From positions 16,819,118 through 16,883,117 of the forward strand of contig NC_087078.1 in NCBI RefSeq assembly GCF_026151205.1: DNA of 64,000 bases, given 5' to 3'. Every line of letters starts with the position of its first letter. Positions within the stretch are counted from its first letter, which is position 1. This stretch comes from Bolinopsis microptera. Taxonomy: Eukaryota; Ctenophora; Tentaculata; Lobata; Bolinopsidae. Below are positions 2,639 to 64,000 of this stretch, one piece after another. The notes under the pieces are model-generated. The model had not been told where the DNA came from and searched no databases. It saw nothing but the letters and a program-made list of their open reading frames with translations. Both the position numbers and the translations under genes were made by a program.

Positions 2639-5600
2639 CTTCGTCGTCATCGTCGTCATCGTCGTTTTCCATTTCTCCGACATATTCTGAAAGTGAGATT
2701 TTACCATCCTGGTTCTCGTCCATATCCTCCATTGTTTCCGCAATCACGACATCTGAAGAAAATGATTGTTTAATAACATCAAAAAACGGAGTAGTTCGCT
2801 GTTTATTAGTCTCATGATTGAAATACTGATATCTGGATATTATCCGGTTGGAAGAGACAAGGACAAGTGAAACAAGGAAGATAGGAGTAAGGGCAAATTT
2901 TCGGCGTCAACGCCAGTGGCGTAACGAAAGGCCCTGCTGACCTCGCTGTGCAGGGGGGCGCCGTCTTAGGGGGGCGCCAAATCGTCGTTTGAATGTGGGA
3001 CAATTTCGAAAACTTAACTAAAGTACTAGCAAAACTGCGCGTTTTGCTCTAGATACACACTTTTTTAGAGATTTTACCGGCGTATTCTCTAAAATCACCT
3101 AATTTGTTCAATTTTAGGGAGGGGCACCAAAAGGGGAGGGGGCGCCAACAGGGGGGCGCTTTTTTCGGCAGGGGGGCGCCAACATGCAACGTTACGCCAC
3201 TGGTCAACGCCATCTTCAGGCTCAATAAATGTATTTAATTGTAGTTGCGAAAAAAGTTTTTAAACTTTTTTCACAACTACAATTAAATACATTTATTGAG
3301 CCTGAAGATGGCGTTGACGCCGAAAATTTGCCCTTACTCCTAACTTCCTTGTTTCACTTGTCCTTGTCTCTTCCAACCGGATAATATCCAGATATCAGTG
3401 TTTAATAACAGTTCAACATAATTCTGGCATAATTATTAGATAAGCAAGTACCTAATTATTTCGCCATGGGATAAAATTAGATAACCACAATTTTTAGTAA
3501 ACCGGTCCAGATTGCGTTTGCTACCAGGCCATCTCTAGATTAAGACATATTTCATTGCATCGGAGATACCGATTTTGAAATATATTAAACACGACCTGGC
3601 CTGAAGATATAACATTAATCATAACAGTAATCATAACATTAAACTTAATATTAAACATAATATTAAACATTACATTTAAACATAATATTAAACATTATAT
3701 GTGCAATATTAATAACACACACGTAGAGGGGTGAGGGTGTTTTATTTGGAGTGTGCCGAGTTGTTTGGGACACGGACTGAGGGTTATTGGGATGTGGGGA
3801 GCCTTATCATATATAATAGAGGGGTCTTGTATCTCTTGCAACATAGCATCATCATATCACCATATTATACAATTTTCGAATTGAACACGTCATCATTAAT
3901 TAACGTCTTTCGCAAATTCCGTGTTAAATTAAAGCTAATTACTTATGTACTCATGACATGTGGAACGGAGAGTTGAATATTTCTGAATATTCTGATTCTG
4001 AATATTTAAGATACTGTACAGTATTAAAATGCAGCACAGTATTAACTACAGTAAACAATATGTTAAATCAGAGGACAAGCTCCCGAAACTAAATCTCTTA
4101 TTGGGGTGTATGCACTGTGCAATAAACTGGGGGTAATATCTTAGCGTGGTTATACTAGATATCCCTTCTAATATTACACGAGGTTTAGGGAGTCATTGAT
4201 CTGTGACACTGTGACACTGTGACACTTGCACTGTGACACTGTGACCAGTAGGCAGTATATACCTAATACCCAAAGACATCACCCTTGTCGAACAAATTGC
4301 GTTACAATCTGTAAGAACAGCTGTGATCAGTCCTATAATTAATACCCGAGCACATTACCCCGATTTACCGTACAGTTCGGGGGAAAGGTAAATAGAACGG
4401 AAAAATATTGTACAGTAAATCGGGGTTTTGACTTGTGAAACTGGGTCCACTGACTTTTTATCTCATAATAGTCCAGTTGAAATATTAGATATTTACAGAT
4501 TTAGAGTGTTGAAGAATGTTCCATATGAACATTGAACAGTCATTCTGTGAATGAAACCATTACATAGGATCATGACATTGTGTTTAAACTGCACGTTTCT
4601 AATGATGTGTACTGTAAACGATATGTTAAGTTCTGGAGAAACATTGAGCAGCAGTCACACTGTCACCAAGAAACACTGTCACTAAGTAAAACATTAAGAA
4701 ACACTGTCACTAACTCATCCAACTACAATAGTCTTGATCCTCAAGCGGCCCCTGATACTGTCCGTGATGCTGCAATCATCATTAAAGTTTACACTGACTC
4801 TGAGAGATCCGTGTCCACTGTCCATAAATAATAGCAGTTCGCTAAATATAAGTGTAAAAGAACAGAGCACCCCCCCCCCCCCCAGTGAGTGTATTACAAA
4901 AGCACAACCCGGAATATGTAGCTTGTCGCTGAGGACTGTGAATTACCAAGATCTTGAATGATGGATCAGTTATTGGGAATATACCAGCATTGTTAACAGA
5001 ACACAGCGAGTGAGGAAGTTTCTTAACTTACGTGTCCCATGGAATCAGAGTCACTCTTTTGTTGTTTACAAACAGTTACACTAGCTACCCCCCGATTAGC
5101 ACATATGATACTCTTATAATCTCTACATCCGCCGACATTAATTTAGCTGAAGTGGATATGATACGTGGATAAAATACGTGGATATGATACGTGGATAAAA
5201 TACGTGGATATGATACGTGGATAAAATACGTGAATAGGATACGTGGATAAAATACGTGGATAGGATACGTGGATATGATACGTGGATATGATACGTGTCC
5301 AAACTTTGAGTGCAGCTCTTAAATACAAACTGTTTAAACTCTAGCTTATGAATTACAATTTGAGATGCAAATCAAATTTCAAGAATTTCGATTTCAGATT
5401 TCGACACGAATCTTGAAAGAGTCCGTATCTATAGCGGTAAACTTTACTATCCAGCCATACAGTCACTGTGATCTTACTGCATAATAGAGCACTGCAAGAA
5501 TTACAGTAGATTAGGTATGCAATGTATGATGGTAGGCATTTAATGTATGTCCAGGTCGACTGTCGAGTCTAGAATATTCTAGTTAAGTCCAGGTCTGGTG

Positions 5601-19305: not shown

Positions 19306-19592
19306 AAAGTAAAACAAAATTTTAAGTAAAACAAAATTTAAATTTTATTGCCATTACAATGAATAATGATATCATAATAAATATAAGTAGACATCCGATA
19401 ATAAACTTGTTACATCCAGTACAACCCAAGATGTCAGCCGACGCAACTTACAAAAATAAAGAAAGCTAGCATGTTATGTTCATTGTTCATAGTTTTTCTA
19501 ACGAGCATGCTTAGCACTTAGGCTGTACGGAAATAGCTTTAATTCTACGTCATATTAAAAACTTTACATCATTTTTGAGATACAAAAATAAA
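19306..19592. repeat. 1.3-kb dispersed repeat, copy 2, left part
   Basis: Matches 14,545-14,833. It is broken at ACAAAAATAAAT by the LINE copy that follows and resumes at 21,612. Confidence 0.8.
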
Positions 19593-21611
19593 TAGAAAAC
19601 TACCGCCCAATTGCAATCTCTACTCTCTCTATATTTGGTAAAATCTTTGAAAAGATCATTTACTCAAGAATATATTCGTTTGCTAGCTCACAGTGTATAA
19701 TATCTAAAACACAATTTGGCTTCAGGCAGTCACACTCTACTTCACATGCAGTTAATCACTCAGTAAACCTTATAACTGAATCTCTAAAACTTAAGCATCA
19801 TGTCTTAGGCATATTCATAGACCTTAGCAAAGCTTTTGATACAATAGATCATGGTACATTACTTGTCAAATTACAGGGCTATGGGATACGTGGGGTGGCA
19901 AATGATCTTATAAAAAGTTACTTAACAAATAGATCACAATATACTGAAGTTGTTGGTGAGAAATCTGACGCCTTGAAAATACAGTTTGGAGTCCCTCAGG
20001 GTTCGATTCTTGGACCTCTCTTATTTCTCCTATATATTAATGATATCGCCAACAGCTCCAGTTTGGGATCATTTGTCACCTTCGCTGATGACACCAATAT
20101 ATTTGTGACTGGGAAATCTAAAAAGGAGGCATATATGCGTGGTAATTCTCTTTTAGCTAGTTTATATTCCTACATGCGAGCAAACAAACTCCATGTCAAC
20201 TTGTCTAAATGCTGTTTCATTCACTTTAAACCAGCATCGTCCTCCCAGACTGACAATAATTCTGAATATACTCTAACCATTGATAACTTTCCAATAAAAC
20301 AAGTTGCATCTGCTAAGTTTCTGGGAGTCGTCATCGATGAAAAGCTAACCTGGGAAGAACATATAAAATCACTTAGGCGTTCTCTCAGCCATGCAACATC
20401 AACTCTCTGCCGCCTACGCTGCTCCCTCCCAGATTTCTTACACCGCCAGTTGTATTACACTCTATTTGAATCACACCTCTCCTATTGTATCACGGTTTGG
20501 GGTGGGGCAGCCAAAACTCGTATAAGTTCTGTATTCAAAGCACAAAAATATTGTCTCAGGGTACTGTTTGGCGACAGGGAGGCATACCTAGATAAATTTA
20601 AGACCTGTGCTCGTGCTCGACCGTTTGGCAACCAAAATCTGAACAAAAAATTTTTCTTGAAAGAGCACACGAAACCTTTGTTCAAGGAACACGGAATACT
20701 TGCCGTCCAAAACCTGTACACTTACCATTGTTTCCTTGAGCTCTATAAAATCATGAAATTCCGTGCTCCGATTTCCCTCCATGAAAATTTCACCTGCTCA
20801 AGTAGGAAACCCACCCTTATACTAAGCCAAGCAGACCCCCCTGACAACTTCAATAGCAGAACGACTCGTATTTGGAACGTAATTGTGCCAAAATCTAAAT
20901 TTTGACATTAAGTCTACCCTAGGGTCCACACATCCAAAATGATTATCTTGAAATTGAAAATTAGCTGGGTGTGCATTTTCCTTTGTCTTACTAACGTGTG
21001 TGAGCGCAGTGTAGTGAGAAAGTGTTTTTAACAGATTTATTATTAGACTTAGGATTATGATTTTTAATATATTACATTGATATAAGATTTGTTTTTGATA
21101 GGTACTTAATAAAGTTGATGAATTTCCCTCCCTATTAAAATTTTAAACCCATTTAGTGAAAATTGATAAACGAAGATCTAGATATTGATACATATTATAA
21201 CCAACATTGCTTATATTCTGCCTTGTAAACAAAGAGCAAATCTTCTTAATGCCTTCTTCCTGTCCTAAAACTAAAACTTCATCCTATTAAAGTAAAGGCC
21301 AGTTGTTACCACAAGCTATTATACCGTCCCTCTCAAAAACATGCCTCAGCCTCCATCAAAAACAATTTTAGTTTTCAGTCCTTCTAGTTTCCAAAAATCT
21401 ACCGAGCTAGTGTTCTGGTGTGCTCAAAAGCCCCTAAGCCCGTGCATTCCTTGCCCCCGCTAGCTGCCAGTCCTTGACAAACTTCCAATAGCAAAGATCA
21501 ACTAGTCATTTACAAATTGAGCACTATACAATTTTAATTGTTTTAAATATTTGACTTTGTAAAATGAGCTAAAACATTGATTTATTAGTTTCATTGATTT
21601 ATTAGTTTCAT
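19593..21611 (+). mobile_element. 5'-truncated non-LTR retrotransposon (LINE A)
   Basis: Inserted into the second 1.3-kb repeat: the interrupted sequence resumes at 21,612 with ATTTTAAAATAAATAACTC. It begins inside the RT domain. The 3' end carries two copies of the 17-bp unit TGATTTATTAGTTTCAT, as expected for CR1/L2-type elements that end in short tandem repeats rather than poly(A). Any target duplication is only a few bases. Confidence 0.8.
19600..20905 (+). pseudogene. Reverse transcriptase of LINE A (partial)
   Basis: RT landmarks appear in order: a YRPIA-like opening (one frame change near 19,610-19,640), FGFRQSHST, FIDLSKAFDTIDH, GVPQGSILGPLLF, the catalytic FADDTN (YxDD box), then KFLGVVID and ESHLSYCITVWGG of the post-RT region. 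It stops early (WNVIVPKSKF) compared with the copy at 25,337. Element-type RT that copies its RNA at the target site; this copy lacks the endonuclease and cannot be autonomous. Confidence 0.8.
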
Positions 21612-22749: not shown

Positions 22750-25336
22750 ACTGTGGTGTGTATTGTGTGTGTTATTTTGTGTGTGTAGTATGAAATCTAT
22801 ATGGACTAGTTTGTATGTTCTTATTATAGGCACATGTCATTTCCATCAAAGTTGAGTTCTGACCATTCATCAGTGTTTCCAGCTTTTTGAGCATTGAGTA
22901 GCATAGTTTTAATGCGACCTTTAACAAGTGCAATTGGGGACGAGAAGTCAATCTTACTAGAAGGTTTAAGGAATTTATTCCACATATTCGAGGTTTTATA
23001 TACAAACAAATTGGTTGCAGCGGGGTTAATAAAGTAGTTATCACGTCGGGGTGACTTTTGAAATAAATTGTACATCGGTATTGGAGTGTGAAGTTTGATT
23101 ATTTTAAACATTTCAAGTAGACAGTAGTACTTATACAAATTATGCACGCAGAGTATTTTGTTTCTGCTGAGAAGGGGTTTACTTGATTCTCGTTTATAGA
23201 AGTCGGCTCCAAGTTTTTGGGATCCAATTGGGCGGGTTCTAGCACATGTTTTGAACTTATTACTGTATGCCTCTTGATCACCAAATAGAATACGAGTGCA
23301 CTTTTTTTGAATTTTAAATATTGGTTCAAGCCTATTGTTCGATATGCCTCCCCACACTGAGATCCCATATCCTAGATGAGATTCGAAGAGGGTGTGGTAG
23401 AGGTCATTATACAGCTCTTTAGGTATCTTCTCATACGGCAGAGTTTACCGACTTCACACTTTAATTTAGAACTAAGATATGCAGTATGAGGTTTCCAGTT
23501 AAGGTTTTTATCTATAATAACGCCGAGGAATTTAGTTTCATCAACACGTTTAATGACTGTGTTATTCAACGTTAAAATAAGATCATTACTATTACTACTA
23601 CTACTAGTTACATCCTTCTTTCCTGGTGTAAAGTGAATGTAACAGCATTTCTTGATGTTAATGTGGAGAAGATTGCATTTCATATAATTGTAAACAGAAT
23701 TCATTATAGTATTAGCTTTTTGGTAGAGATTCTGGACAGATTTGTCAACTACAAATATATTGGTGTCATCAGCGAAAAGTATAAATTTTCCTAGGTCTGA
23801 TGAGTTATAGATATCGTTTATGTAAATTATAAACAGTAGCGGTCCTAAAACACTACCTTGTGGTACTCCACAAATAACAGGGAGTTTATCAGATTCCTCA
23901 CCTAAAACTGAAACGTACTGCTGTCTGTTAGATAGGTAACTTCCAATAAGCTCGTTTGCGTTACCTCTTATACCATATTTGTCAAGTTTTATGAGAAGTT
24001 TATCGTGACTGATAGTGTCAAATGCCTTTGATAAGTCAATAAAGATACCTAATACATGTTGCTTTTCCTTTATATGGGAGTTTACATAGTCAACTGAGTA
24101 ATTAAGGGCGTGGTTAGTTGAGTGACTCTTCCTAAAACCAAACTGGTTCTCAAACAGAACGTTCTGCGACACAAGAAAACTGTACAAACGGGAGTAGATT
24201 ACTTTCTCAAATAACTTTCCGAACACAGCTAGGGTAGATACTGGCCTATAGTTTTCGAGATATTCCATTCTTGAGTTCGCTAATGATTTTCTCTATTTCT
24301 TCTGGTGTACAATCGCTGAGAAATATACTTGAGGTATTTGGCCTTGGTAAGTAGTCCGTAAAGCATTGAATTGGACTTAGTCTAATTTGACCGGTTGTAC
24401 TGTATGATTCATTCAACTTAGGGGCAAGAGATACAAAGTAATTATTAAATTCGTTAGCTATAATTCTACGGTTCATTATTTTTTCATTATTAATAACAAA
24501 CGGGGGTTTAATTTCTCGTTTCCCTTTGCCGCGTATCTTATTGATTAGTTGCCATGTTTTCTTACTGTCACCTTGAACTTCATTAAATTTACCCATATTG
24601 TACGAAGTTTGAGCCTTTTCACGTATAACTTTGAGTTCTTTTCTATAATATTTATAAGTTAAGTACTCACTGCGCTTTTTGTTACATACTGCGCAGTGAC
24701 AGAAGCCACCTTTTGTGTCAGTATCTCCTAGATTGCACTTGACTTTGCGAGCTTTGACCCAGTTTTCGTATAGTTCGTGACAGTGATTTATTGATGTTAT
24801 AATTGCTGGTGTAATCCATGGATTGTTTTGCATAGTGCGTTTTGTACATTTCGGGGTTTCTAACTTGAAACATTCGTCAAAAGCAACGTTAAATGTGTCA
24901 GCAAAGGTATCAAAACAATTTATTACAGTGTTATCAAGACTATTGGATAGTTTGTCGGTGAACTTATCTACGTTAGAGTTACAGTAGTCATAAAACTGTT
25001 CATACTTAATCTTGCAATCGTTCTGGTCAAGGTGTGTGTTGAGTGCTAAGAATATGGGGTGATGATGTGTGATTTTGTCTTTGAATGTGCCAGATGTTAT
25101 AATGTTGTCTAAATCATTGGTAATGATGTTATCGATGCATGAAGGAATACAGCCGGGTTTTTCATGGGTCATTACAGATATGAGAGGATAGAAGCCTAGA
25201 CTGTAAAGAACGTGTTCATATTTAGCAACCTTGTTGCTGTCGCCGTGAAGATTGATGTTAAAGTCACCAGCTATATACGAGTGTCTGGGGACTTTGTCCA
25301 GAGTGTCGGCTAGTTCACTTAGCGCTGAGTAAAAAA
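22750..25336 (-). mobile_element. Non-LTR retrotransposon (LINE B), endonuclease to 3' end
   Basis: Reading from 25,336 downward: the end of an apurinic-type endonuclease (SYIAGDFNINLHG, then PSCIDNIITND and THHHPIF), a linker with a Cys/His cluster (CHCAVCNKK), the RT, and the C-terminal domain ending at 22,824. The 3' tail is CA-rich. The 5' end stops abruptly against LINE C. Residual similarity places it with LINE A and C in one CR1/Jockey-like clade. Confidence 0.85.
22824..25172 (-). pseudogene. Polyprotein of LINE B, with an internal deletion and frame changes
   Basis: Three overlapping open stretches: 24,246-25,172 (endonuclease end plus linker), 23,372-24,268 (RT: YRPVSTLAVFGKLFEK, FIDLSKAFDTISHD, GVPQGSVLGPLLF, FADDTNIF) and 22,824-23,357 (ILFGDQEAYSNKFKTCAR to the stop). 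At about 24,260 the text jumps from the linker straight to YRPVS, so the first part of the RT fingers is deleted. Near 23,425 a one-base shift separates the second and third stretches. Not functional. Confidence 0.8.
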
Positions 25337-26375
25337 ACGTAAGACCATTGATAATACTGAAAATGACTTGAATCTAGAAATTGATGGGATCCCGATCAAA
25401 CAGGTTACTGAAACGAAATTTCTGGGTGTAATTATTGATGACAAACTGAGTTGGACACCTCATATCGAGAAACTAACTAAGAAATTAAACAGCATATGTG
25501 GCCGTATTTATCGAATAAAAAACTCCCTCCCCAGCCAGCTGTACAAACAGATATACCACACTCTTTTTGAATCTCATCTAGGATACGGTATAACTGTATG
25601 GGGTGGTGTATCAATTAATAAGCTTTCACCACTATTCCTTGCACAGAAGAAATGTGTCCGAATCTTATTTGGGGACTCGGAAGCATTTAGCGACAAGTTT
25701 AAAACTTGTTCTCGTAGCAGGCCAATCCAGTGCAGTATAAACAAGAAAGGTCAAATATCCAATGAATCAACTATACCTCACATTAAACCGTGTTCTATAT
25801 GTATCAGCTTGAGGAAGACTGGTGATAAACAAGCAAGGCCACATCGCTGCCAAATACTTGGGGCAGAATTCCACTCTAGAGAATCAACAAAACCTATTTT
25901 CCAATCTAAGGAACTAATGACAGTACATAACATATATAGATACAGATGCATTACTGAAACAATGAAGATAGTGAAGAGTCATCAGCCCATATCCATGTAT
26001 TCTCTCTTTAAGAAGTCTGAGCTCAGAGATGACAGATTTGTGACACCACACTCATCTCACAATTTCGCATATAAAGGGGCAAATTTATGGAATAGGTTTC
26101 TTGAGCAGTCAAATGCACGTGGTAAAATAGGTTCACTAGGTTCAATTAAATCCCGATTGAAGCTTTCTATCATGAAGGCTCAACACCAACCTGACAATAT
26201 TAACTGGCAGGACTTAAACTTCAACACTTTCCTATGAAAAGACCCCCATTTATATTTATATATTTTAGATTTTACACCTGTCAATCACATCATATATGCA
26301 CCACAAAAGAAAAAAGATTCATTCAATCATTACATTATACACTCACTCCACCACACATGCACACAAAACATTAAA
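25337..26375 (+). mobile_element. 3' fragment of a third non-LTR retrotransposon (LINE C)
   Basis: Holds only the post-RT C-terminal region and a CA-rich 3' end. It abuts LINE B in head-to-head orientation. LINE C carries a segment of roughly 50 residues with paired cysteines (KPCSICISL) absent from LINE A and B, so it is a different subfamily. Confidence 0.75.
25368..26237 (+). pseudogene. C-terminal domain of LINE C polyprotein
   Basis: Open for 289 codons: TKFLGVIIDDKLSW, LFESHLGYGITVWGG, CVRILFGDSEAFSDKF, then the Cys-containing insertion, SRESTKPIF, and a final INWQDLNF that matches the end of LINE B (WSELNF). No RT catalytic core remains. Confidence 0.8.
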
Positions 26376-58455: not shown

Positions 58456-59912
58456 ATGTTGAGAACTATCTGCATTTTCCTGCTTTTTATTCACTATGCT
58501 AGTTGTACCTCGGTCAAAAGGGATGTAGAGTCAAAGAAAGAGAAAAGGAAATCGAAGCGAAAAAAAGATAAATCTGTAAAGAAGAAGAAATCTGTAAAAA
58601 GAGGAGAAAGCTGCAGAAATAGAACAAGCGAAAACTATCGCAAAATGCTATGAGTACGAAAGCAAATTGGACGTCTGTTTATCATCGGGTACGTAGTGAA
58701 TTAAAAAATAATTTGCTCAAAATTAATCATTATTGATCGCAAGAAAAAGTAGCAAACTTGATCTTCTTGAAAGCGTCCAACAAGATTATACTATTTTCTA
58801 AGTAAAATATAGCTCCATTCGATCTCCACAAGTTGAATTTCAACTTATAATTCCTCAAACTCACAGATTACAAGCCCAAGTGGATCAAGTGTGCTGAAAA
58901 GTTTCACAAGATAGCAAACGAAGGCTTATCATTAGAAATAGAGAAGGAAAAAACCCGCAGAAAGCCAGTAAAAGCCAGACAGGTTGGTGACAACACTCGT
59001 GTTGGGGTAATGAGTAAGAAGAAACGGCAAAAGAGACAAGTTCGTGGGAGTACACTGTCAAAGAAGGAGGAAAAAGGGTGCCGACAGAGCGAAAGGAAGA
59101 TACACAAAACTTGTGTAAAGTCGAAGTACGATTGTGCAGCAATAAATGAGGCAGTTTTGGAAAGGCGAGAGAATGTAGCATGGCTAACTGGCAATATACC
59201 AGGTATTCGGAGAGTCACACATTTAATTTTATATTAGTTTAATGCAATAAGGTAATAGTATTATTATTATATCGGGTCTCTATAAGAGGTCTCGACTACC
59301 TAGGCATCAAACGTTGGCAGTCGGTAATTTCCTCCGCCCGGAGTCAGCTAACCATAAGGATCAGAGGATGATTATTATTATTGTTTACTTCTGTTTCTTT
59401 ATTCGGAGAATTGTTACCTAAATTCGAAATTAGACCTCATAAACATGTTATGTAATTTGACAACAGATAAACATTTCATTTTAATGATTTCAGGAGGAAT
59501 AACCCCAGCCGACATGTCTGACGAATTGACTATTGAAGCGTTGGAGCAAATCCTGATGGAGTTTAAGCGGAGGGCATACACTCTAGGAAACATGAAACCT
59601 CGGGATACCATATTGGTCGGAGACGTTCTTAACATAGACGAACAGGTGAGCATCACTTAAAAAGACCAAATTTATTCACACTACTATGTTTTTGTGTAGT
59701 TGGGAGGGGGAGGGAGGGGGTGTCGTATTTTACATAATATGATACCCAAGATACTGTGGCAGTGTGGCTCTTTACAAAGTACACCATTACAGGCCGTAAG
59801 TGGACACAAATTCGAGGTTACGCTAGAGCTGGGGATCACAAACAATCCTAGGTGCAAAAGACTATCTCGGAATGGCATTGTGGGCACCAAAGTCTGCGAT
59901 GATCGTGAAAAT
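58456..59912 (+). CDS. Secreted lysine-rich protein with cystatin domain, copy A (one-base frameshift in exon 1)
   Basis: Exons: 58,456-58,688; 58,867-59,202; 59,494-59,645; 59,793-59,912, all GT-AG. Exon 1 encodes a signal peptide (MLRTICIFLLFIHYASC), then a Lys/Arg/Glu-rich run and a Cys pair (CYEYESKLDVC). Exon 2 has KWIKCAEKFHKIANEG, a further basic stretch with the furin-like site RQKRQ, and CRQSERKIHKTC. Exons 3-4 form a cystatin: N-terminal IPGGITPADMSDE, helix EALEQILMEFKRRAY, and Q-x-V-x-G as QAVSG across the exon junction, then HKFEVTLELG and a Cys pair. Cystatins inhibit papain-type proteases. Exon 1 is 233 bases where phase demands 3n+1. An A run of five at about 58,597 (four in copy B) shifts the frame to a stop at 58,651. 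This is either a real lesion or a sequencing error. The C-terminus is unsettled: a last exon may follow, or the frame may read through the donor to TAA at 59,949 beside AATAAA. Confidence 0.7.
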
Positions 59913-60297
59913 GTGAGTTTATTTACAAAAATCGGTGATTTAGATAAATAAATGTAGATTGTGGTGGGGAGGTGAAGCATATTTTTTCCACGTGACAGTA
60001 AGCTTTCACTATTTCCCAATCAAAACCAGGAATCACTGTAGGGACTACCGGTGGAAGATGAATAATTAAAATTCCAACAACATCTTGTTCTCTTCATTGT
60101 GCTGATTCCGGGAAGCATTCTCTTTACGCTCTCATCATACTGTAGAATGAGATATCGTTCATTTAAAATAGGGTAATATAGGTCTGCCAAGGATTGCAGC
60201 CCGATTAAGAGCTGATAAATTGCAGCTACTCGTGCCATATAAAAAATATTCTCCAAATCCCCACCACAATCCAAATATATTAGTTTTTATATTATTT

Positions 60298-60991
60298 GGA
60301 GGGGGCGCGGGGGCGGGGAGGGGGGGGGGGGGGCTGACTATATTAAAGTATATTAAAATGGAGGTTTTCCCGATTTAGGGGCGGGATATACTTTAATATA
60401 TCCCTATCTTTTTGGAGGCCTAAATCAAAAATTCGCTGCACAAAATAAGCTTGAAATGCAATTCTTAATCGATTCCGAAAATTTCATGCAAAAATATTGA
60501 AAACTGATGAAGTTATTTCAATTTTAATGAAGTCATTTTGGCTAGTATCCCGAACCGAGATATTATGTGCAATTTTGTTTATGGAGGTATTTTTACTTAG
60601 TATCCAGTATTCAACAGATATTGAGCTATATCTTTCACATAAAGTTAGTCTCATTCAAAAATATTGAAATTTGATCGAATTTTGGGCGAAAGCTTTCAAA
60701 TTTGGTGCTTATGCCCAAATATGGGCATATGGTTAAATTCATGTACTAGTCCAAAAACAGGCTTATCTTGCAAATCTAAACGAAGAATATAGCTCGACTA
60801 ATTTTGGGTATTAGGGTTACTGAAAAGGAGATAAGCACCTCAGGCCATCCCAACGTTCAGGAGAGACCTGCCCTTGTGTCTTGTTTGTTGTAATTTTGGG
60901 TATATTAAAGTACATTGAAAGTATATTAAAATTTCGGCTTTTTTAGGTGCGGGGATATACTTTAATATGGTCAGCCCCTCCCCCCCCCCAT
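60298..60991. repeat. Foldback element related to the giant palindrome at 29 kb
   Basis: Ends are a G-rich run followed by CTGACTATATTAAAGTATATT at left and its complement plus a C-rich run at right (inverted repeats of about 90 bp, imperfect). Inner sequence about 60,412-60,735 resembles 29,790-30,150 (GGAGGCCTAAATCAAAAAT, CGATTCCGAAAATTTCATG, GCCCAAATATGGGCATATGG). The internal arms here are no longer palindromic. Confidence 0.75.
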
Positions 60992-61294
60992 TATTGTTAA
61001 CGCCTGCGGTTTTCTTGTTTGAAAACGTGCAAAATCCTCATGTAGTGACTTTTATTAACTCCCTATATCATATTTTATGGTAGAAAAGCACACATGATCA
61101 ATTATGATAACTTACGGCCACGGAACTATACATCAAAATAGGGTTTTTAGCGTCCAGCCAAAATGATTTCAAGGGAAGAATCTCACCATTTCCACCAAAA
61201 ATCCTTTTGAGAACACGCATTTCTGTAATCGAGCATTTCCTGATTTAAATCATGTCTCGAAACAAGCTATTTCTTTGATATTTCTTGTGATACT

Positions 61295-61525
61295 GATAGT
61301 TGGATAATATCCGGTTGGAAGAGACAAGGACAAATAAAACAGGAAGTTAGGAATGTAAATTTCTAACTAAGTATTAAAACTTTCAACACTGTACTATATA
61401 TCAAATAATTTGAGCCTGAAGATGGCGTTGACGCCGAAAATTTGCCTACATTCCTAACTTCCTGTTTCATTTGTCCTTGTCTCTTCCAACCGGATATTAT
61501 CCAATTGTCAGTATTTCAATCATGA
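61295..61525. mobile_element. Foldback element, second copy
   Basis: Arms TTGGATAATATCCGGTTGG... and ...CCAACCGGATATTATCCAA share about 70 bp, including AGACAAGGACAA and AGGAAGTTAGGAATGTAAATT. The right half holds GCCTGAAGATGGCGTTGACG, as at 3,298-3,318. Similarity continues right to about 61,560 (TCAATCATGAAACTAATAAA). The two copies have different middle parts. Confidence 0.75.
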
Positions 61526-61981
61526 AACTAATAAACAGCTAACTACTCCATCATTTGATATTTCTTGTGATATCGAACTAAAACTGCGCACGAAGATTTT
61601 CAACGTGTTGTTCTACATGTGTAAAGAAATTCTATATCAAGAGAAATAGCTGAGTTACTGCCTCTCAATCAAGCAAATAGCTTGCTTCGAGAAATGATTT
61701 AAATCAGGAAATGCTCGATTACAGAAATGCGTGTTCTAAAAAGATTTTTGTTGTGGAAGTGGTGCGCAAATGAAGTTCCTGCGAAGTCATTTCAGCTGTT
61801 AATATTTGGTGTATCGACCCTAATAGGGCGGAAAATTTAGCTTCCACCCACATTAAATTCTGAAAATGGTCAATGGTGTGATCGAAAATTTTCATCCAAT
61901 CTCAAATTTAAAGGAAGTAGTGCCGTAGTAAGTGCCGTCCGCCACTTTCCATTTCCTGTTTTGGATTATTCAGATTCGTGA

Positions 61982-62692
61982 CGAAACTTGTTTCGTCATT
62001 ATCACTTTTTTGTTCCGGCGAAAAAAAGGAAATGGCGAACGGTGGTGACACCCCTGAAGACTGCTTATAAACTGTTTTCTCGGCAGATCGGCATAGGAAT
62101 CCTATCGGCAGTCCACTCACCTTGGAAGCAACCACCATGGCTCTACTTCGAATACCAAGATACTGTAGGTACAAGCCCCTCGAAAGAACTCTACTGGGGT
62201 GAAGACCAAGACATATCCGTGAATGACGAATATACCGAAGAGAGTAACTTTTACGTGGGGCCAACAAGTGAACTCGATGATGAATGGATATTATTTTTGG
62301 ACGAATATAGTACTGCCGACGATTATGCTTTTAATATTGATGAATTCGATGATGAATGGATATTTTTTTTACAAGAATATGGTGATGAATATGGGTTTGG
62401 TGATTTATTTGGAACTTCGAATTATGATAATTTTGATACAAACGATGATGAATACCATTTTGATAATAATTCTGAATGGGGTGATTTTATGCTTGGAGTT
62501 TCCCCTAGTGATAATTTTGATACAAATGATGATAAATACAATATCGATAATAATTCTGAATGGGGTGATTTTATGCTTGGAGCTTCCCCTAGTGATAATG
62601 TTGATATAAAAGATGATGAATACAATATTGATAATGATTCTGAATGGGATGATTTTATGCTTGGAGCTTCGCCATTTCGCAATTTTGGATGA
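61982..62692 (+). CDS. Acidic repeat ORF, probably one exon of an unknown gene
   Basis: Open from after the stop at 61,979-61,981 to TGA at 62,692, about 235 codons. It has no ATG before the repeats, so a spliced start is likely; GTTTTCTCGGCAG at about 62,090 is a good acceptor. The C-terminal half is three 28-residue repeats (62,426-62,677) with consensus DNFDTNDDEYNIDNNSEWGD plus FMLGASPS, preceded by two looser DDEW(I)xFLxEY units. It is extremely rich in Asp, Glu and Asn. No known domain recognised. It lies on the same strand between two lysine-rich cystatin-type genes. Regular protein repeats and an uninterrupted frame argue for coding, but simple DNA repetition could also keep the frame open. 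Confidence 0.4.
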   Translation, partial: RNLFRHYHFFVPAKKRKWRTVVTPLKTAYKLFSRQIGIGILSAVHSPWKQPPWLYFEYQDTVGTSPSKELYWGEDQDISVNDEYTEESNFYVGPTSELDDEWILFLDEYSTADDYAFNIDEFDDEWIFFLQEYGDEYGFGDLFGTSNYDNFDTNDDEYHFDNNSEWGDFMLGVSPSDNFDTNDDKYNIDNNSEWGDFMLGASPSDNVDIKDDEYNIDNDSEWDDFMLGASPFRNFG

Positions 62693-62914
62693 ATACATTA
62701 AATACTGGTGCACAATGCGTTTACGTTCATTTTATCTATTCATGTACCGTGTAGTATTTATTAGTCTTGTATCTAGAAATGTAAGTCGTCGCATTTTATT
62801 TTGTTTAATAATCAGGCTGAGATTCCACCCAATTATCCACTTAAAATAACCCAATACATTCTAATATACAGCCCATATATTTCACTACAGATAACTCTTT
62901 CCATTCAGGAATTC

Positions 62915-63749
62915 ATGTTGAGAACTATCTGCATTTTCCTACTTTTAATTCACTATGCTAGTTGTACCTCGGTCAAAAGGGATGCAGAGTCAAAGAAAGA
63001 GAAAAAGAAATCGAAGCGAAAAAAGGAGAAATCTGTAAAAAAGGAGAATTCTGTAAAAGATTATTTGGGAAATAGCATGGAATGCTATAAGTACGAAAGC
63101 AAATTGGACGTCTGTTTATCATCGGGTACATATTGAATTAAGAAATAGTTTTAGATTATCGGGGACGAAATGAGTCTCCACTCAGTGTAAAACAAAATAT
63201 TTGATGTATTGTCGACTTTTCGGCTATATTTTTGATATATACATAGCTGCAACACACAATTGGTACAAAAATCTATATACTATTAAATAATGTCAACCGA
63301 TAAAATTTGGAGATATTTCACGTTATTGTTTTTCATTTCATGTAAAATAAAGCTCCATTCAATCTCCACAAGTTGAATTTTCAACTTATAATTCCTCAAA
63401 CTCACAGATTACAAGCCCAAGTGGATCAAGTGTGCTGAAAAGTTTTACAAGATAGCAAACGAAGGCTTATCATTAGAAATAGAGAAGGAAAAAAACCGCA
63501 GAAAGCCGGTAAAAGCCAGCCAGGTTGGTGACAACACTCGTGTCGGGTTCAACAGCAGGAAGGAACGGCAAAAGAGACAAGTTCAAGGGAGCACAAGTAA
63601 ACTAACAAAAAAGGAGGAAAAAGGGTGCCGGCAGAGCGAAAGAAAGATACAGAAAAATTGCATAAAGTCGAAGTACGATTGTGCAAAAATAAGTGAGGCA
63701 GTTTTGGAAAGGCGATTAAATAAAGCAATGCTTTCTGGCAAGATACCAG
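62915..63749 (+). CDS. Secreted lysine-rich protein, copy B (cystatin exons beyond the window)
   Basis: Exons: 62,915-63,125 and 63,408-63,749, same phases as copy A. Signal peptide MLRTICIFLLLIHYASC, lysine-rich run (KKEKKKSKRKKEKS), then MECYKYESKLDVC. Exon 2 has KWIKCAEKFYKIANEG, the furin-like RQKRQ and CRQSERKIQKNC. The frame is intact here, and exon 1 is shorter than in copy A (211 against 233 bases) because the KEE-type helix is replaced by DYLGNS. The window ends at AAACATTTCAT, which in copy A is about 14 bases before the cystatin exon, so the cystatin domain is expected just outside. About 120 bp of upstream sequence is also duplicated, so both copies may share a promoter type. Confidence 0.75.
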
Positions 63750-64000
63750 GTACTCCAGAGATTCGCACATTTAATTGTATATTAGCATTATTATTATTAT
63801 CAATTACTTCTGTTACTTAACTTCTGTTTCTTTATTCGGAGGTTTGTTACCTAAATTTCAAATTGGATCTCATAAACCTGGCGTGTAATAATGTAATTAG
63901 ACAGCATAATTACGGCTTTCAAACTAAATACAATAACTGTTATATTAAGTAATAACGCCACAAAGTAGAAGATCGAATTAACAACAGATAAACATTTCAT
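63750..64000 (+). other. Intron 2 of copy B, running off the window
   Basis: Parallels 59,203-59,481 of copy A (ACTTCTGTTTCTTTATTCGG, TTGTTACCTAAATT, AACAGATAAACATTTCAT) with small insertions. No other feature. Confidence 0.7.

Follow-up and report, generated by a model that had tools for sequence, protein, structure and literature searches.

What kind of secreted product would join a lysine-rich, cysteine-bearing front half to a cystatin domain, and would its basic part come free of the inhibitor behind it? The question is raised by a tandem pair of genes at the end of a 64,000-nucleotide stretch of the ctenophore Bolinopsis microptera (contig NC_087078.1, here C7; C7:16819118-16883117, hereafter the window), which was analysed together with a searched genome of 264.65 Mb in 232 contigs. 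An earlier, sequence-only reading had proposed a two-part precursor that a furin-like cut would split into a basic peptide and a protease inhibitor. The reading favoured here, to which we give about even chances of being right, is a secreted, type-2-like cystatin inhibitor of papain-like cysteine proteases that has charged ends and is clipped but still tethered. The interest lies in a predicted cystatin with two oppositely charged extensions, for whose front half no family turned up in the libraries searched, and in its occurrence in a probably early-branching animal lineage. Exon models were built from GT-AG splice sites and reading frame, with splicing predicted from DNA alone.

Two tandem genes and a distant third copy

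The two copies lie on the same strand, with ATG codons at 58456 (copy A) and 62915 (copy B), 4,459 bp apart, just as the sequence-only reading had placed them. Both contain the lysine-rich run, the cysteines and the RQKRQ sequence that it had named, behind a start that resembles a signal peptide by eye, and copy A carries the IPGGI and QAVSG motifs. The predicted genes have five exons each, not four: exons 3 and 4 do encode cystatin sequence, as had been claimed, but they do not end the gene, for a fifth exon holds the PW segment of the domain and an acidic tail. Similarly, the proposed 'Cys-pair segment' does contain cysteines, but these form a triplet on each side of the furin-like site rather than a pair.

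Copy B, on the plus strand, is the better example of the gene as predicted. Its intact exon 1 (62915..63125) encodes the putative signal peptide, the lysine-rich run and the first two cysteines of module 1, and exon 2 (63408..63749) the third cysteine of that module, the furin-like RQKR-Q and a second cysteine module. Exons 3-5 lie past the window, at 64015-64166, 64315-64434 and 64847-65842 in extended window coordinates (C7:16883132-16884959), on the same strand. Joined at usable splice sites, the five form a single open frame of 606 residues (607 codons with the stop).

Copy A, also on the plus strand, retains this layout only from exon 2 on. Its exon 1 (58456..58688) encodes a signal peptide-like start and lysine-rich run and is 22 bp longer than that of copy B (233 against 211 bp); the frame breaks before the first cysteine pair, so that reading from its own ATG yields 65 codons and then a stop at 58651-58653, and the frame leading into exon 2 has no ATG beyond the last exon 1 stop. 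From exon 2 on, copy A is open for 404 residues and a stop. Exon 2 (58867..59202), defined by splice sites and frame, holds the third cysteine of module 1, the furin-like RQKR-Q, cysteine module 2 and, at its end, IPG; exon 3 (59494..59645) begins the cystatin domain (GGITPAD to IDEQ); exon 4 (59793..59912) completes the QxVxG loop with AVSG and carries the cystatin cysteine pair; and exon 5 (62087..62692) encodes the PW segment and a 172-residue acidic repeat tail, with the stop at 62690-62692. The frameshift in exon 1 makes copy A doubtful as a working gene, and it may be a pseudogene, a polymorphism or an assembly error, all three equally compatible with the sequence. It also lends some weight to a reading in which these genes are decaying duplicates, of which copy A is a pseudogene and just B and C count, or none functions beyond a plain cystatin; the complete frame and usable splice sites of copy B speak against such decay, which is weighed further below with the substitution rates.

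A third copy, C, lies 3.8 Mb away on the minus strand (C7:13087824 down to 13084750) and is more diverged. It retains the six N-terminal cysteines, the furin-like motif and the exon phases, and its N-terminal half has the same layout at 43% identity. In the second cysteine module, 28 of 51 alignment columns are invariant among A, B and C, including KEEKGCRQSERK. Because copy C keeps the layout at this identity, and because so many columns of the module are invariant, the arrangement is more than chance, and the architecture of copies B and C is well supported at the level of predicted genes in DNA.

Copies B and C share one order of parts: a signal-like start, polylysine, a cysteine triplet, the furin-like site, another cysteine triplet, the cystatin domain and a polyanionic tail. 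With the signal peptide and its cut assigned by eye, on which the charges of the pieces depend, the four pieces of copy B have net charges of +17 (109 residues), +9 (55 residues), -1 (121 residues) and -60 (303 residues), and those of copy C +16, +6, -1 and -24. The lysine-rich front fragment is 109-112 residues long in the two copies. Cysteines number three in this N-terminal fragment, three in the second module, two in the cystatin domain and none in the tail. The two triplets were considered as an internal repeat, and a profile comparison gave this a probability of 0.2% (E-value, the expected number of chance matches, 0.3). A predicted structure of exon 2 places helices on either side of an unstructured middle, in a low-confidence model (mean predicted local distance difference test score, pLDDT, 54.4; predicted template modelling score 0.28).

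The tail shares an exon and a frame with the PW segment, so that its link to the cystatin is free of splice prediction. In copy B its 303 residues form a tandem array rich in Gly, Tyr, Ser, Asn and Asp, whose repeat units include ones of 78, 108 and 186 bp; the three copies differ in tail sequence, and every tail is acidic. Beyond the stop of copy C (minus strand, about C7:13084743-13084133), the SNDEESYPGFGLGMGDG repeat goes on through changing frames, as a disrupted continuation of the tail would.

Long repeats that differ in every copy, and opposite charges within one chain, would suit a structural or adhesive secretion. Complex-coacervate glues condense by opposite charge, and the polycation and polyanion of one precursor could do likewise, with the cystatin protecting the material; in a ctenophore, colloblast glue would be the obvious site. 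Only three gene copies were found, however, and the searchable text of the colloblast candidate-gene paper (PMC6278862) names no cystatin. On balance, a structural or adhesive role seems unlikely. As for other structural materials, nothing fitting was found in that portion of the open-access biomineralisation literature that was consulted.

The cystatin core and the front half

The claim that the front half is fused to a cystatin gains support from homology, much of it through two plain relatives. Gene D (C7:13081271 down to 13080116, minus strand) lies about 3.5 kb downstream of copy C and is a plain cystatin with neither module nor tail; gene E (C10:13377405-13377878) is a plain cystatin without introns. 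The two are 59-75% identical over four matched pieces; against the cystatin domain of copy B, identity is 34% for D and 36% for E. Scanned without its first methionine, gene E scores 25.8 bits against the Pfam cystatin family PF00031, above the cut-off of 22.2 bits, and copies A, B and C align with D and E throughout the domain. Across the five genes, the N-terminal Gly-Gly, the tryptophan of the PW loop and the cysteine pair are present in all, and QxVxG in four. A profile of the five domains finds one match among solved structures at an E-value of 0.01 or below, a multicystatin (6.7e-05), and a single-sequence search with copy B meets solved cystatins from an E-value of 0.045 upward.

Several results weigh against this assignment. 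Gene D (21.0 bits), copy C (17.8) and copy B (13.4) fall below the Pfam cut-off and copy A has no match at all; the first 459 residues of copy B match no Pfam family at an E-value of 0.01. Copy C reads SxVxG, its glutamine being gone, and the proline before the PW-loop tryptophan is found in A, D and E and is missing from B and C. The multicystatin match is best over a stretch of 19 columns around QxVxG, and none of its stretches reaches significance by itself. A whole-genome search with PF00031 came back empty, as did its controls, even though gene E clears the cut-off when scanned singly; the genome-wide E-value limit and the search by single exons probably account for this. Taken together, a divergent cystatin seems a reasonable call for the domain.

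Might exons 3-5 constitute a separate gene? No signal exon of the D or E type was found near A, B or C; the search, made with a short and insensitive query, matched only gene D and gene E itself (E-value 0.03). Nor was a conserved in-frame ATG start seen in intron 2, by eye.

In comparison with known systems, the nearest are the type-2 cystatins (PF00031; MEROPS I25, for example cystatin C), which usually have two disulphides. The composite genes resemble them in the signal-like start, the N-terminal Gly-Gly, QxVxG (except in copy C), the PW-loop tryptophan and one conserved cysteine pair, and differ in the polylysine and cysteine module with its furin-like site in front, the acidic repeat tail and the presence of just two cysteines in the domain. 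By eye, a hydrophobic start of the signal type is present in B, C, D and E. Since two cysteines leave room for one disulphide rather than two, the domain is termed type-2-like and not type-2. Histidine-rich glycoprotein and kininogen, which belong to the type-3 cystatins, likewise join cystatin domains to low-complexity regions; here, in contrast, there is one cystatin domain, lysine and Asp/Glu take the place of histidine, and the front half has no match among solved structures. In the open-access library searched, four papers mention both ctenophores and cystatins, none of them with a title on ctenophore cystatins.

The front half stands apart. In Pfam it gives only two matches, at E-values of 0.17 and 0.9 and below the families' own cut-offs, and a profile of its three sequences finds nothing in the PDB up to an E-value of 10. 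Within the genome, the N-terminal half of copy B returns six matches, all within A, B and C (the query used here and in the first Pfam scan had one extra glycine at the exon 1/2 junction); that of copy C returns the same copies and three rows at E-values of 0.68, 1.65 and 7.5, read as chance. No stand-alone version of the module was found beyond A, B and C among the best candidates, which were those scored. The six-cysteine module may be a new domain.

The furin-like site and the fate of the charged ends

The furin-like site reads RQKR in copies A and B and RKRR in copy C, followed by glutamine in all three, and sits in the structureless, low-pLDDT stretch of the poor exon 2 model. There is reason for caution. 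When the basic region is shuffled, R-x-[KR]-R arises in 980 of 5,000 shuffles for copy B, 1,024 of 5,000 for copy C and 1,132 of 5,000 for exon 2 of copy A (20-23%), and in copy C the motif occurs again, as RDRR, closer to the cystatin. Copy A has another, RCKR, within the cystatin. The motif followed by glutamine is rarer, at 39, 38 and 53 of 5,000 shuffles respectively. By itself the motif is thus a weak indication of cleavage; its aligned conservation with an altered middle (RQKR to RKRR) makes the better argument.

If the site is cut, does the basic part go free? One possibility is a precursor of a cationic peptide, antimicrobial or membrane-active, in which furin would release the lysine-rich fragment of 109-112 residues and the cystatin part would act as a carrier. 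This fragment is strongly basic, at +17 in copy B and +16 in copy C, and the predicted location of the site in an unstructured stretch, in a model of low confidence, would also suit release. Such a precursor would resemble a cathelicidin in reverse. Cathelicidins consist of a cathelin domain and then a cationic peptide, and the composite genes share with them the plan of a secreted precursor with a cystatin-like domain, a cationic part and a processing site; here, however, the cationic part stands in front and contains cysteines, the cystatin mostly keeps its inhibitory motifs and the C-terminal part is acidic. General Pfam scans of the family's proteins gave no cathelicidin matches. The retained inhibitory motifs would be out of character for a pure carrier, and a cut with three cysteines on each flank speaks for a tether, which leaves the peptide precursor a rather unlikely account.

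Indeed, because three cysteines lie on each side of the site, the two pieces may stay linked by a disulphide; should the two cystatin cysteines pair with each other and all others be bonded too, at least one bridge must span the cut. Furthermore, the cystatin side would keep about one third of the basic region, as 55-59 residues with a net charge of +6 to +9 in B and C. The earlier proposal that a furin cut would free the basic part is weakened by this: an inhibitor that is clipped yet tethered by a disulphide seems more probable than the release of a peptide. It counts against this preference that both tether and retention are deduced from cysteine counts and charges.

The clipped and tethered inhibitor might work as follows. 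The genes would encode an inhibitor of papain-like cysteine proteases that is secreted and acts outside the cell. Its type-2-like cystatin core would have gained a polycationic six-cysteine module at the front and a polyanionic repeat tail at the end. A furin-type convertase would probably clip the precursor once, between the cysteine triplets, and the two resulting chains would remain joined through at least one disulphide. The charged ends could then retain or pack the inhibitor in a secretory granule, in mucus or on another charged surface, where it might hold in check either the many papain-like proteases of the host itself or the proteases of prey or microbes. If the charged ends do localise it, they would be a compact means to keep an inhibitor at the sites of digestive or adhesive secretion that call for one. 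The same parts could also make a secreted protein that condenses by itself, possibly one peculiar to ctenophores, in which polycation and polyanion of one precursor, a single furin clip and a disulphide tether combine, and the cystatin shields glue or mucus from the animal's own papain-like proteases; this we consider quite improbable.

Family history, constraint and possible targets

Two introns within the cystatin domain occupy the same positions in gene D and in the composite genes, and the intron before the domain, in a gene D model chosen by frame, lies 5 nt off the composite exon 2/3 junction. It is plausible, if deduced from gene structure and position, that a D-like cystatin gene was duplicated, gained two 5' exons and a tail, and later gave rise to A and B through a move and a tandem duplication. 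Gene E could be a retrocopy derived from a gene of the D type. Weak matches to cystatin occur at C8:13930737-13931298 and C112:7165-7362, some of them interrupted by stops; these are possibly decayed or intron-split members.

For exon 2 of B against C, the nonsynonymous rate (dN) is 0.42 and the synonymous rate (dS) 1.90, a ratio of 0.22; the ratio is 0.32 for A against C and 0.49 for A against B. In the cystatin domain, where dS was saturated and not computable in 7 of 10 pairs (exon 1 of B and C was likewise saturated), the ratio is 0.19 for D and E and 0.89 for A and B, the latter a point against a maintained inhibitor. These values suggest constraint on the added exon 2 module between B and C, and relaxation in the A-B pair. 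Decaying duplicates would account for the value of 0.89, as they would for the frameshift of copy A and the repeat remnants in shifting frames behind the tail of copy C; constraint on the very part that was added, at a ratio of 0.22, speaks against them, and decay is to us the least probable of the readings weighed here.

Potential targets of the putative inhibitor are plentiful in the genome. The papain family gave at least 154 matches with 150 of 281 candidates scored, and the 86 best rows (E-value of 3.4e-35 or below, counted by hand) each span 190 or more of the 220 model positions in a single frame; of these frames, 85 have no stop and a few may be duplicate haplotypes. Two frames were scanned in Pfam: one gave a match above the cut-off to the ShK domain, the other to the cathepsin propeptide domain. 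Several papain-like frames have acidic or cysteine-rich tails.

Some further features were seen along the way. Intron 4 of copy A contains nested inverted repeats (61198-61749) with arms of 82 nt (91% complementary) and 73 nt (93%), resembling a small mobile element, and intron 4 of copy C an open frame that by eye is like the RNase H region of a retroelement (locus L003, reverse complement, 2977-3657). Elsewhere in the window, long open frames at 19592-20905 and 23372-25373 look, again by eye, like the reverse transcriptase and endonuclease of a retroelement without long terminal repeats (non-LTR). Across the genome searches, matches lie on 13 contigs with coordinates past 14 Mb (C1-C13) and on small ones; the assembly gave no match to COX1 or to cellulose synthase, the latter a marker of tunicates. 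Finally, single-frame glutamate-receptor genes account for 32 genome matches, ten of them open frames of more than 900 residues. The best solved relatives of one such frame are chains of ML032222a (E-value 2.7e-37), which we take to be from the ctenophore Mnemiopsis, followed by the next molecule at 2.3e-25 and kainate receptor 2 at 4.9e-21.

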